Shown one piece after another: positions 4,897 through 23,988 of a DNA stretch of 52,932 nucleotides. Positions within the stretch are counted from its first letter, which is position 1; each line of letters begins with the position of its first letter. The stretch comes from a virus. The stretch is from positions 1 through 52,932 of IMG/VR virus record IMGVR_UViG_3300046170_000229, one strand, 5' to 3'. The notes under the pieces were generated by a model. The model saw only the letters and a list, made by a program, of their open reading frames with translations. It had not been told where the DNA came from and did not search any database. The translations under genes were made by a program, and so were the position numbers.

Positions 4897-7800
4897 ATGG
4901 ATAGAACACAAGCTTTAAAAGCTTTAGAATCTGCTAAAGCAGTAAAAACTCCTATTACAGAAATAAAAGATAGCAGTCTTGATAGAAATACAGCTTTAGA
5001 ATTACTAGACTCACAACAAAAAGAAGTTGTTACAGATTCTATTGGTATAACTAGAAAAGACGCACTTGAGGCAATTGAATCTTATAATAAAGGTAACCCT
5101 CAACAATATGACTTATCTAATGGTACTGCTAATGTACCAACTCAAGAATACTTAAAAGTATTTACTCCTGAAGTAGATGATATTCTTTCATCTAATGCCT
5201 TCACTGATGAAGGCTTACTCAAACCTATTAGAAGTTTAAAATATGGTTATCTACAATCATCATCAAACTTATATAATATCTTATCTAATATCCCCGGTGG
5301 CGTAAACAGATTTAAAAACTTTATGACAGGACAGACTAGTAAAAGTCCTGAAGAACTTCTTATGTCTGACGACAGAACTGACCAATTAAATTTAATGGAA
5401 CAGGCAGAGAAATATTTAAAGACTATAGCTTATGATGTTGCTCCTAAAGGAATAACAGATGATAGACTTATTGATAAAATATATCAAGGCGTTGGGGCAA
5501 CCCCCGTGACAGTGGCTCAGTACATTCCCGCAACTAGAGCAGCAGGTGTTTTAGCAAAACCCCTTTCTAAAATAACTCCCACAAAACTTAAAAAATTAAA
5601 TGATAAATACTTTAATTTAGTTAATCCTACATCTATGGGATTGGCTGCAACTGATGTATTAGCTACCTCTGACCAAGGTTTTGGTGATGCTTCTATTGCA
5701 GGTATAAAAGGTTTAATCCTTGGTAATGCTTTAAAAGGTACAGAAGGATTAAATGTAAATGCTAGAATTACAACTTTAGGAACTTTAGGTTTTGCATCAA
5801 CAGAAGGTTCGTTTGATGATAGAGTATCGGGTGCGGTGACCTTTGGATTACTAGGTGGTTTTGGAAGACTGGAAGGTAGGACATTAAAAGAAATAAATAG
5901 AGATTTTAAAGATACTTATGAATTTAGAAAAGGTGTTTTAGAAAATAGATATAATAAAGAATATATAGAGACTTCTGAAAAGTTTAAAGTCCAAGAAGAA
6001 AAAGAACAAGCTAAGATGATGGACTATTTAGACAAAGTAGACACATTAACTCAACAAAAATCTATAGCTGAGAAAGCATTAGAAAAAGGTGAAAAAAGTA
6101 TCAGCCAAAAAGGTATTGATGATATTCAAAAAAGTATTGATAAGTATAATACTTTATTAGAAAGAGAAATTAAGAAAAATAAAATAACTAAACCTTATTT
6201 TGATGCTATAACAGCAGAAAAAATGGATATTAGAAATGCTGTAGAAGTATTTAAAGATTTATTTTATACAGTAAAAGATGGTAAAAATTTAAAAACAAAA
6301 AAGAAATATAAAGATATAGATGATGGAACTATATCTTCCATAGCAGGTAAATATTTATTACCTCCTAAGTTTATGAAGAATCATCCACTTCCTAAATACA
6401 TAGCAGATAGAGTATCTTTGTCAAAATTGAATGGTAGTTTACGATTTAATGATTTAATAAAATCGGACAAAGTAAATGATGTCAAATACAAATATGAAGG
6501 TGATGTTGCAAGTAGATTTAGTTTTGTTCCGGGAATGAAATCTACAAAAATTAAAGCAGACCCTAATTCTTACGAAGGCACATTAAAAAATATAACATCA
6601 AAAGAAGCTTATGGTGTCATGGAAGCAATGATAAAAATAGAACAACGTTACGTTGATTTTATTAATGCAAAGAAAAAAGATAAAGCAAAAATGAAATATT
6701 TCTTTGATAAGAAAGGTAATGCGAAAGTAAATTTAGTAGAAAAAGAATATGGCTTAAACGAAAATCAAATGAAACATTATCTTGCTAAAAGATATGCATA
6801 TGATTTAGCACATAAAGATTTGATAGCTACCCTAACAGAATCAGGTGCTAAGACTAACATCCCTAAAAGTTTACCTAACTTTATGGTACACGCTTTTCCG
6901 GGAGAGTACAGAGTGTATGCTAAAAAAGAAACTAAGAAAGGTGATGTTACAATACAAACTTATGGTGTTGAAAGTTCTAAACAAGCTAAACAATTAATAG
7001 AAAAATTAAAAGAGAAAGACGCAGATTTAAATTATAACTTTAACAAAAGAGATATGCCTTCAGACAGAAGAGCAATAGACCAATTCTCTGAAGTTTTTGG
7101 ATATATAAAAAATGATAGTAAAGCAACTGCAGCATTAGATACGGCTTATCGAGAATTTTTATTAAAAAATTTACCTAAACATTTTATGAAAAGAAAGAAA
7201 GACAGGTATATTACAGGTTTTGCAGGTACTAATCCTTTTAAATCAGACGTAAAAAATGTAGAAGAATTTCATCGAGCAGAGATACAGTATTTTGATGGTA
7301 TTACTCAAGCTATTGAAAAAATAAAATTTGATAGAGATGTTAATTTTGTTTTAAATCATCAAGGTAAAGCTAAAAATCTTTACCCTAATGCAGTTGCTCT
7401 ATCTAAGGCAGTAATTAATAATGCATTTGGAAGAGAAAATAATAAATTTACTAGAAATGTAGATAAGTTAATTGAAAACTATACCCCATTTGAATCAGCA
7501 GGTAAATTTTTCGATGGTGTAAATAGATTTACTTTAGTATCTAAACTACTAGCTTACAACGTAAGATTTGGAACAGCTTCATTTTTACAACCTTATCAAA
7601 TGGTCATACCTAGATTAAGAAGGTTAAATGATTTAGGAATAACAACTGAAAATCCTTGGAACTCTTTATTCCAAGCATATAGAGATATGTTTTTACCAAG
7701 CAAAGAAGCGAAGCAAGTAATAAAATATTTTGCAGAAGAAGGTGGATTAGCTAGTGCAAAGTTTCTAGATGAATTTAATAGTGTAGATTTTTTAGGAAAA

Positions 7801-17511: not shown

Positions 17512-17673
17512 TTATAACTTTTTTTTCTTATATTGCAAGTGCTTTAAATCTTTATCTAAATGTTTTTTTATCAAAGGAAATTGAAAATCTGTTCGATACT
17601 CCCCTTGATGGTATCTTAACAATGACCACAATCTAGGATTAAATTTTTCTAGATATGCTTCAGTATTATTCAT
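17512..17673 (-). CDS. 53-residue hypothetical protein
   Basis: Begins MNNTEAYLEKFNPRLWSLLR and ends in a Lys-rich tail (HLQYKKKKL). AAAGGAG lies eight bases before the ATG, and a regulatory palindrome lies 15 bases upstream of the start, so the gene forms a one-gene unit closed by the terminator at 17434-17466. That palindrome-ribosome site-gene-terminator order is strong support for a real gene. Function unknown. Confidence 0.75.
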   Translation of the reverse strand: MNNTEAYLEKFNPRLWSLLRYHQGEYRTDFQFPLIKKHLDKDLKHLQYKKKKL

Positions 17674-17688
17674 GATTACTCCTTTCTA

Positions 17689-17704
17689 CTTAACACGTGT
17701 TATC
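17689..17704 (-). promoter_or_regulatory. regulatory palindrome, copy 2
   Basis: CTTAACACGTGTTATC: the 12-base core TAACACGTGTTA is perfect, the right outer arm differs. It lies 15 bases before the start of the 53-residue gene and directly after the folded region 17705-18122. Confidence 0.8.
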
Positions 17705-18122
17705 TTCAAAAAGTTTTTTGAGGATGTGTACAATGACAAACTGTTATATGTACATTAGTGGTCATGAATCCACTCACGTCAACATCCTCAAAAAATCTTG
17801 TTGGTAGTTTAGCGTCCAAGTCAGGTTCCTGAGGCTTTGCGTCCTTTTGGCTATATCTTGGTTTCTGCATATAATTTTTCAGCAGACCTGCCACTAAACT
17901 AATTTACGTGGGGCAGACTGTACAATCTACCCCAAGGTACTTTGCGTTGCGTTTGAGTTTATACTCGGCTACGAACCCAAGAATACGAAATGGCTTACGC
18001 ACGAGTACCGACAGTGACCATAGACTTACCTATCATTTTGGTAGCTAATTCAAAACTCATCAAGCTTAGTGTAATCGGTTAAAAGAAACATTCAATCGTC
18101 ATCAAATGTTTCTCTAAACCTT
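17705..18122 (-). ncRNA. candidate structured non-coding RNA of about 400 nt
   Basis: Flanked on both sides by regulatory palindromes, with no credible gene inside. On the minus strand it begins two bases after palindrome copy 3 with a 16-pair stem (18077-18120, one mismatch), followed by hairpins at 17960-17985 (9 pairs, one mismatch) and 17910-17933 (8 pairs, GGGGYAGA/TCTGCCCC). It closes with a perfect 14-base inverted repeat, TTTTTTGAGGATGT at 17714-17727 and its complement at 17782-17795. An open frame at 17706-17894 exists but starts with GTG, has no ribosome site and is cut by the inverted repeat. RNA function is inference. Confidence 0.55.
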
Positions 18123-18138
18123 CTTAACACGTGTTAAG
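18123..18138 (-). promoter_or_regulatory. regulatory palindrome, copy 3 (before the candidate ncRNA)
   Basis: Perfect CTTAACACGTGTTAAG. Preceded on the minus strand by the terminator at 18140-18172 and followed two bases later by the first long hairpin of the 17705-18122 region, the only copy that does not lead into a gene or another copy. Confidence 0.85.
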
Positions 18139-18139
18139 T

Positions 18140-18172
18140 AAAAAGGGGTGTCAGATATAGACTAACACCCCT
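18140..18172 (-). terminator. rho-independent terminator of the 18247-19014 operon
   Basis: Minus-strand stem AGGGGTGT / ACACCCCT with a 13-base loop, followed by TTTTT and then palindrome copy 3. A second, weaker hairpin (ACTCCGAAA / TTTCGGGAGT) lies between it and the end of the gene at 18247. Confidence 0.85.
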
Positions 18173-18507: not shown

Positions 18508-18679
18508 TCTTTTGTAGTACTTCACTAACATCAACTATTGTTCTGTCTATACCTTTTTCATACAAAGGACTAGAATGACCATCCATTAAATAATTATTCT
18601 GTGCCTCTTCTACATCTTTTGCTTTTATGTAATACTTTTTTGTTTTAGTTACCTCAACAACAATTTCATACATAGGCAT
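18488..18679 (-). CDS. small protein of DpnD/PcfM-like pattern
   Basis: 63 residues. MPMYEIVVEVTKTKKYYIKAKDVEEAQNNYL shows a beta-beta-alpha start in which I-x-A-x-x-x-E-E-A follows a strand, the pattern of DpnD/PcfM-like small phage and plasmid proteins. Its ATG overlaps the stop of the upstream gene by one base. The similar 19986-20171 product suggests a small paralogous family in this arm. Function unknown. Confidence 0.65.
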   Translation of the reverse strand: MPMYEIVVEVTKTKKYYIKAKDVEEAQNNYLMDGHSSPLYEKGIDRTIVDVSEVLQKNGESFD

Positions 18680-19014
18680 TAGTTTGTTCCTTTCATGTCA
18701 ACAGTACCTACAAACATTAATCTGTAGTCATCTGTGTTCTCTACTTCAATATGATAAATCATACCCTTAGCTTTGATATATTTAATCGTATTGTAATTAA
18801 TATTTCTATAACCTTTCTTCTGCATATCATAAGCAACTAAAAAATTATTAGGGTTGGTATATTGTCTACCGCCCTTTTGATTTTTCTTTACACCTAGTCT
18901 GAATACACCAGTTCTAAATGTTCCGTCTTTCTTGTAGAAACCTACAGAGAAAGTATTCTGTGTACCTACCATTTCTTTAATAGCTTCAGGCACAGTTAGT
19001 TTTGACATTAACAT
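18679..19014 (-). CDS. hypothetical protein, first gene of its operon
   Basis: 111 residues from the ATG at 19014, with AGAAAGG six bases upstream; a GTG frame to 19038 would start inside the palindrome and is rejected. The sequence is beta-rich and basic: FSVGFYKKDGTFRTGVFRLGVKK (two adjoining segments), then MIYHIEVENTDDYRLMFVGTVD. It resembles small phage proteins with SH3-like folds, but that is a guess. Palindrome copy 4 lies about 15 bases upstream. Confidence 0.7.
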   Translation of the reverse strand: MLMSKLTVPEAIKEMVGTQNTFSVGFYKKDGTFRTGVFRLGVKKNQKGGRQYTNPNNFLVAYDMQKKGYRNINYNTIKYIKAKGMIYHIEVENTDDYRLMFVGTVDMKGTN

Positions 19015-23972: not shown

Positions 23973-23988
23973 TATAACACGTGTTAAG
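23973..23988 (-). promoter_or_regulatory. regulatory palindrome, copy 9
   Basis: TATAACACGTGTTAAG: perfect core TAACACGTGTTA with one degenerate outer arm. Centres of copies 8 and 9 are 48 bases apart, near four or five helical turns, which would suit cooperative binding. Confidence 0.8.

Follow-up and report, generated by a model that had tools for sequence, protein, structure and literature searches.

On the minus strand of the virus record IMGVR_UViG_3300046170_000229, analyzed here over its full 52,932 nucleotides (the window), positions 17704-18123 near certainly represent a tandem array of six short RNA cassettes, designated A, A2, B, C, D, and E, which measure about 27-105 nt each (Table 1). 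We have very little doubt that this stretch is a structured noncoding RNA array; its existence and modularity can be regarded as near certain, whereas its function we infer. It is likely that the cassettes act in trans rather than through gene-specific control in cis, and the whole chain of reasoning, from a noncoding modular array up to trans action, appears probable on balance. The chance that the cassettes are inhibitors or decoys of host proteins falls slightly short of even.

Table 1. Features of the array unit and its immediate surroundings, in minus-strand order
Feature	Position	Strand	Support or remark
Terminator-like hairpin and T run, end of preceding unit	18144-18172	-	11 pairs, 6 of them G-C, then TTTTTAC
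Perfect palindrome TTAACACGTGTTAA heading the array unit	18124-18137	.	candidate promoter or operator
Cassette A, long leader hairpin	18077-18121	-	z -6.6; homologues in L001, L003, L004, L006, L019, L021
Cassette A2, conserved block, fold uncertain	18010-18072	-	z +1.4; homologues in L001, L003, L019, L021
Cassette B, conserved pseudoknotted domain, P1 crossing P3/P4	17935-18014	-	18 loci by profile
Cassette C, simple G-C-rich hairpin	17906-17932	-	z -3.5
Cassette D, closing stem, two inner hairpins, and four-pair pseudoknot	17801-17905	-	alignment of homologues
Cassette E, 14-base inverted repeat closing a conserved core (ACTAATG.ACATATA)	17714-17795	-	z -4.2
Palindrome ATAACACGTGTTAA (minus strand) heading the next unit	17690-17703	.	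one mismatch
Gene for a 53-aa protein behind the array	17512-17673	-	no PHROG match; follows different arrays in relatives

The carrier is a virus of the HMO-2011 type by primase comparison (record length 52.9 kb), the homologues of the window primase including HTVC033P (40.8%), CRP roseophages, and HMO-2011 itself (30.7%). The palindrome TTAACACGTGTTAA occurs in 12 copies in the window at no more than two mismatches, compared with 0.38 expected, mostly shortly upstream of a gene and sometimes directly 3′ of a terminator-like hairpin. Between 17396 and 25244, 11 palindromes with the core TAACACGTGTTA head consecutive minus-strand units, several of them right behind terminator-like hairpins. 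Given the little room that remains between such a hairpin and the unit that follows, the palindrome itself may serve as promoter or operator. In L005 and L006, a different palindrome, CTTATAACGTTATAAG, stands upstream of the primase gene, and in L006 also upstream of cassette A, a pattern that would fit a joint change of a DNA-binding protein and its sites. A first-pass annotation had singled out the array unit as the only one that follows a palindrome without a credible gene; it does so, but the palindromes at 23974 and 25231 are likewise followed by geneless stretches, of only 34 and 87 nt before the next palindrome. Behind the array come the 53-aa gene and then the primase gene. In another phage (L092), an array of the order R-M-Q-F lies shortly upstream of a gene that by eye reads like a DNA primase, much as in the window; that gene starts close to the 3′ end of the locus. 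Elsewhere in the window, positions 18679-19014 encode a 111-aa protein with a weak match to an anti-restriction PHROG (E 0.0025), its best match being a PHROG of unknown function.

Folded as the minus strand, the 420 nt as a whole reach -121.8 kcal/mol, compared with -95.3 (sd 5.5) for shuffled sequences (z -4.83; 0 of 100 as stable). The plus strand is likewise stable (z -3.98), and thus the strand is not given by folding alone. Every local element noticed at first inspection was recovered. The stem read as 16 pairs at 18077-18120, immediately behind the palindrome, folds as 4 + 15 pairs (stability matched by 0 of 300 shuffles), a hairpin is confirmed near 17910 (1 of 300), and the perfect 14-base inverted repeat joining 17714-17727 with 17782-17795 is exact, none of 300 shuffles of its segment being as stable. 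Pairing also exists at 17960, not as the plain hairpin proposed there but as part of the pseudoknotted fold of cassette B. Cassettes B (z -2.1), D (z -1.7), and A2 are not outstanding by folding energy, and their support is comparative.

No open reading frame of at least 50 aa lies inside the span from the first to the last cassette; GTG frames of 62 and 46 aa overlap the stretch. The homologues, inspected for the conserved open frame that had been named as grounds for abandoning an RNA, contain none, and the 62-aa frame is altered where E is missing; a coding frame was rejected. It is accordingly extremely improbable that the stretch holds a short coding gene or a set of DNA-level elements such as cruciforms or recombination or replication sites: palindromes do flank the unit and the 62-aa frame does run through D and E, but D read as protein differs at several residues by eye, and the one-strand orientation and G-U bias described below point to RNA. 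Searches with the Rfam 15 families returned no match in the window at the gathering cut-off, in keeping with the earlier impression that no known RNA class was recognizable, and below the cut-off only chance-level matches to the stretch (best E 0.21). An identity as tRNA, tmRNA, or known Rfam RNA was rejected, with no match in the window, and tRNA genes of the kind that make up phage tRNA arrays are absent from it. A resemblance of cassette D to the c-di-GMP-I riboswitch (GGACGCAAAGCCUC) found no Rfam support and was discarded.

Comparison with relatives reveals the modular organization of the array. A primase scan of IMG/VR provided ten loci for the first comparison. The match of the array unit to L001/L002, at 99.7% identity, is confined to its first 320 nt; L003 aligns with it over 333 nt at 86%, and L004 does so as two distinct segments. 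Conservation among these relatives comes in blocks, and the gaps follow the same block pattern. Used as search patterns, blocks B, E, F, H, G, and D returned 12, 6, 17, 14, 42, and 7 stretches, respectively, chance matches included, and a relaxed F pattern returned 24; in these stretches the blocks appear in new orders with further blocks alongside. With profile searches the catalogue grew to 23 cassette families; its loci number about 70 and lie almost without exception on phage contigs, and 14 of the 23 families are present in at least four loci. Near-identical contigs still inflate the locus counts. Visual inspection of these same loci supplied the seeds of the families. Families U and K overlap, and C, a plain hairpin, was left unprofiled. 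We dropped the E-pattern stretches L024-L028, which are one coding sequence, and L018, L068, and L082, which look like chance coding matches. The catalogue count omits L002, L010-L012, L014, L017, L018, L023-L028, L034, L037, L039-L041, L061, L063, L068, L070, L082, and L089 as same contigs, near-copies, or chance or unrelated loci. Once minus-strand copies of the self-complementary A and a plus copy of S are removed, 47 of the 48 loci with at least two cassette hits carry all of them on one strand; the exception is L090, where the remaining hit is a partial G of 21 nt at another place.

Cassette order reads A-A2-B-(C)-D-E in the window, A-A2-B-D in L001, A-A2-B-D-H in L003, A-B-H in L004, A-A2-B-G-E-F-E-J-H in L019, A-A2-B-D-F-G in L021, H-G-B-V in L013, K-A2-G-L-J-H in L048, and H-G-W-F-X-G in L093. 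Cassette B is the most widespread of those in the window array. The stem of A is kept with other bases in L006, and that of C has quite different sequences in L003, L004, and L013 when compared by eye. Cassette A2 is missing from L004 and recurs in L048 and L086 in another setting; D stands alone in L086 and L087; and E has two copies in L019, one of which has a different closing stem (GAGAGAG/CTCTCTC), and none in L014.

The comparison with L014 is especially direct. Around a replaced segment of 118 nt (17686-17803) that holds E and a palindrome, the two contigs share 99.6% identity across 3685 nt on one side and 99.1% across 1383 nt on the other. Similarly, identity between L021 and L022 is 98.8% on one side and 100% on the other of an exchange in which the palindrome, A, and A2 of the former correspond to another hairpin in the latter. 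Such whole-cassette differences between contigs about 99% identical on both sides indicate that the exchange is recent. In L019, E follows G across a junction, AAACTACCAACAAGATTTTTTGAGG, identical to that behind D in the window, and the two cassettes appear to have been joined at the shared AAACTACC; over 96 nt, L019 and the window agree at 97% of positions in the E stretch, compared with 80% identity for the genes beyond. On this evidence, the modular exchange of whole RNA cassettes is to be accepted with great confidence. The first-pass annotation had envisaged a single structured RNA of about 400 nt. Its structured, noncoding, minus-strand character stands, supported by homologues, two-sided base changes in D, and the lack of a conserved frame, but one large RNA was rejected, since cassettes occur alone or reordered and E is absent from a relative 99% identical on both sides.

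Base changes on both sides of a pair furnish further support for the folds. The shuffle control used here keeps the effect of relatedness in, and a second control, in which the alignments are slid, preserves relatedness. In family F (18 sequences), 95.1% of cells are paired and 12 of 21 pairs show two-sided change, in 33 cells; none of 500 shuffles reached these values, and slid versions attained at most 5 pairs and 7 cells. All cells of its pseudoknot are paired (100%), and two-sided change affects two of the three pairs there. Family H (12 sequences) is 87.9% paired, with two-sided change in 11 of 26 pairs (1 of 500 shuffles) and 32 cells (0 of 500); its six-pair pseudoknot is invariant, and its last helix is 61% paired in the alignment used. 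For cassette D (six sequences, 98.4% paired), two-sided change affects 9 cells, a count that 0 of 500 shuffles reached, and 4 pairs, which 115 of 500 reached. The pseudoknot of D is CAGG/CCTG, elsewhere CTGG/CCAG, and one of its pairs is AU in three sequences and UA in three. Two-sided changes thus exceed the controls in D, F, and H, and in D and F they include the pseudoknot. Cassette B is 90.8% paired in an alignment that misplaces P1 in diverged rows, and its two-sided changes lie within the shuffle range (3 cells, 116 of 500); a direct search recovers a P1 of 5-9 pairs in 13 of 13 rows, in three sequence versions. The expectation that the stems should survive substitution therefore holds for D, F, and H, and is left by B within what shuffling yields. 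At paired places G-U outnumbers A-C by 31:6 in F, 14:4 in H, and 4:0 in D, an excess that fits an RNA of the array strand.

The genes that follow the arrays bear on the choice between action in cis and in trans. For 49 array groups, the next gene starts no more than 120 nt away, and these genes belong to 24 families, by a next-gene rule that is crude and misses some (e.g., L004). Genes of 14 families follow cassette G, 8 follow F, 5 follow J, and 4 follow B, instead of the constant gene association of a riboswitch or leader, and the window's 53-aa gene is found behind four different arrays. The placement of one cassette before unrelated genes and of one gene behind different arrays argues against gene-specific cis control; this mixing appears hard to square with it, although compatible with a general role in cis. 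We therefore consider it unlikely that the cassettes serve as riboswitches or regulatory leaders, each for the next gene, as proposed for manA and wcaG. The arrays do share the strand of the coding sequence and in most cases precede genes, and many end 18-30 nt before a start codon, as a leader would; arrays of up to nine cassettes speak against leaders.

The manA class itself can be cited on both sides of this question. The published description presents both manA and wcaG as leaders that stand singly before metabolic genes, and places manA commonly in potential 5′ UTRs (PMC2864571). A sister family of the cassettes, O, matches manA (RF01745) in several loci below the gathering score (best E 2.3e-8) and is by this match a distant manA RNA; it shares loci with F, J, N, K, and G, and lends the leader reading some support. 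The window stretch has no match to RF01745. Two cyanophages, on the other side, place manA in rows with tRNA genes. In Synechococcus phage ACG-2014f (L097, 129914-130272), manA occupies 129989-130199, 1 nt from tRNA-Arg and 1 nt from tRNA-Asn; both tRNAs (L097 1115-1188 and 1402-1473) are missing from the record annotation. The row in S-CREM1 (L096, 9745-10643) reads wcaG, tRNA-Met, tRNA-Leu, manA, tRNA-Asn, abiF, and tRNA-Gly. With manA flush with tRNA genes on both sides in two cyanophages, its position does not look like that of a leader. The available part of the S-CREM1 paper lists its wcaG, manA, and abiF RNAs and carries no remark on their arrangement. These cyanophage rows share with window-type arrays only the manA-like family O: wcaG (RF01761) is found in 0 of 17 array contigs, S-CREM1 serving as positive control, and abiF (RF03085) is absent from 19 of 20 records searched, S-CREM1 being the sole match, neither having a match in the window. 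A search of the S-CREM1 record at E 0.1 found no Abi_2 protein, so that the abiF RNA there is apparently an orphan.

A gene-independent role in cis merits separate consideration, namely that the cassettes are barriers that shield phage mRNA ends from host nucleases or prevent read-through. It would explain both the free mixing of cassettes and genes and the presence of several unlike pseudoknots in a row; moreover, the closing stem of cassette A starts 2-3 nt after the palindrome, and cassette F of L038 ends in a terminator-like T run. However, specific unpaired bases are kept in each family (cassette B has 43 invariant alignment columns), beyond the needs of a barrier, some arrays have no gene start close behind, and no phage RNA of such a kind was found in the open full-text literature. 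We judge this role improbable, somewhat more so than that of gene-specific leaders. It is very improbable that the cassettes are self-cleaving ribozymes or processing signals at which the transcript is cut between them: the folds are short and pseudoknotted with conserved cores, but neither the window stretch nor the searched array loci match a ribozyme class of Rfam, and cassettes also occur alone.

In the trans-acting mechanism that we favor, one transcript would start at or near the palindrome, which would start or control transcription, and would fold into six independent domains (A-A2-B-C-D-E), each in effect an exchangeable RNA gene. The domains would persist as stable RNA, whole or trimmed as in a tRNA array. 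Acting in trans, most would bind and block host proteins or serve as their decoys, the putative targets being abortive-infection toxins or other RNA-binding factors, and phages would trade the cassettes as they trade anti-defense genes. This anti-host reading draws on the rapid exchange, which resembles that of anti-defense genes, on unlike folds with conserved cores, and on the precedent of abiF, whose RNA binds and neutralizes the AbiF toxin (PMC12373285, in the part available).

Several known systems resemble the arrays in some respects. Phage tRNA arrays likewise place RNAs in exchangeable rows, but tRNAs are nearly absent from the array loci (none in 59 of 60 scanned, the exception, L038, having a tmRNA and a tRNA). 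RNA anti-CRISPRs, reportedly phage-borne small RNAs that act against host defense, are similar as small RNAs of phages, although the window cassettes, compared by description only, are not CRISPR-repeat-like. The units of ToxI RNA are pseudoknotted. Like the arrays, type III toxin-antitoxin RNAs such as ToxI are rows of short RNA units, which bind and block proteins, but ToxI repeats one unit beside its toxin gene (PMC12373285, available part); the units of the window are unlike one another, with no known toxin gene adjoining. The abiF RNA (RF03085) is a small folded RNA whose orphan copy in S-CREM1 stands beside manA, wcaG, and tRNAs; it has no sequence or model match to any cassette, and its link to the arrays is by analogy (same source). 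GOLLD, ROOL, and OLE, as portrayed in the accessible text, are structured, pseudoknotted RNAs, the first two of phages or prophages and often near tRNA islands (PMC12286853). The first-pass annotation had been reminded of large phage RNAs of this sort. That resemblance is not supported: those RNAs are large single molecules that form homo-oligomers, whereas the window has short, separable cassettes without an Rfam match, a row of independent domains that separate and reorder in other phages. The manA and wcaG RNAs (PMC2864571, accessible portion) are complex pseudoknotted RNAs of marine phages, one of which family O matches; the window cassettes match neither model, and both RNAs are described as standing singly, not as parts of an array that can be swapped.

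Searches of the open full-text literature, outside which most subscription papers and preprints lie, turned up no description of arrays in which different RNAs are mixed and exchanged; the papers found treat manA, wcaG, and abiF as single elements and place GOLLD and ROOL near tRNA islands. We rate the window cassettes and their assembly as matching no described kind, the nearest being manA and its tRNA-row setting, of which a more cautious view would make the array a variant. More tentatively still, and with the odds somewhat against it, marine phages may share a fast-shuffling library of dozens of unlike RNAs directed against different host proteins and organized as anti-host islands, with manA and wcaG among them and not as riboswitches. 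Anti-defense islands are clusters of small protein genes. An RNA counterpart of these, carried by viruses related to those of abundant ocean bacteria, would constitute a new kind of phage accessory region, would add many RNA families at once, would hint at why manA and wcaG are without a settled function, and would make a search for targets directly testable. Even if the cassettes protect mRNA or act as leaders, searches of the open full-text literature found no modular exchange of pseudoknotted RNAs between phages.

Beyond the metagenomic contigs, matches are sparse. The array unit has no blastn match among 50,697 phage records, and the L030 array has only short ones, in Pseudomonas and Klebsiella phages (E 4). 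With the L045 array, 17 records gave short matches, including Staphylococcus phages down to E 3e-4 under hypothetical proteins; the Staphylococcus phage matches to L045 (1380-1900) cover a 43-nt piece of the array. The F and H models gave nothing convincing in nine cultured phage records (best E 0.034 and 0.051) and only known members in 31 and 35 sources, respectively. Of 34 loci, 6 gave a match to the J model, with E 0.099 for the weakest. When 84,980 bacterial and archaeal species, each represented by one genome, were screened with the relaxed F pattern, a single match came up, in Phocaeicola; it reads as chance, and F is not credibly present in the genomes searched. Module J is present in Pelagibacter phage HTVC115P, a phage of the SAR11 strain HTCC7211, where the J-model hit (E 4.5e-20) arises by construction, the sequence having been in the model. 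The region beside cassette F in L038 is closest to T4-like phages such as HTVC008M. There, at 6692-6762, F is closed by AAAAAAGATGG/CCATCTTTTTTT and ends in a run of T, and it may double as a terminator.
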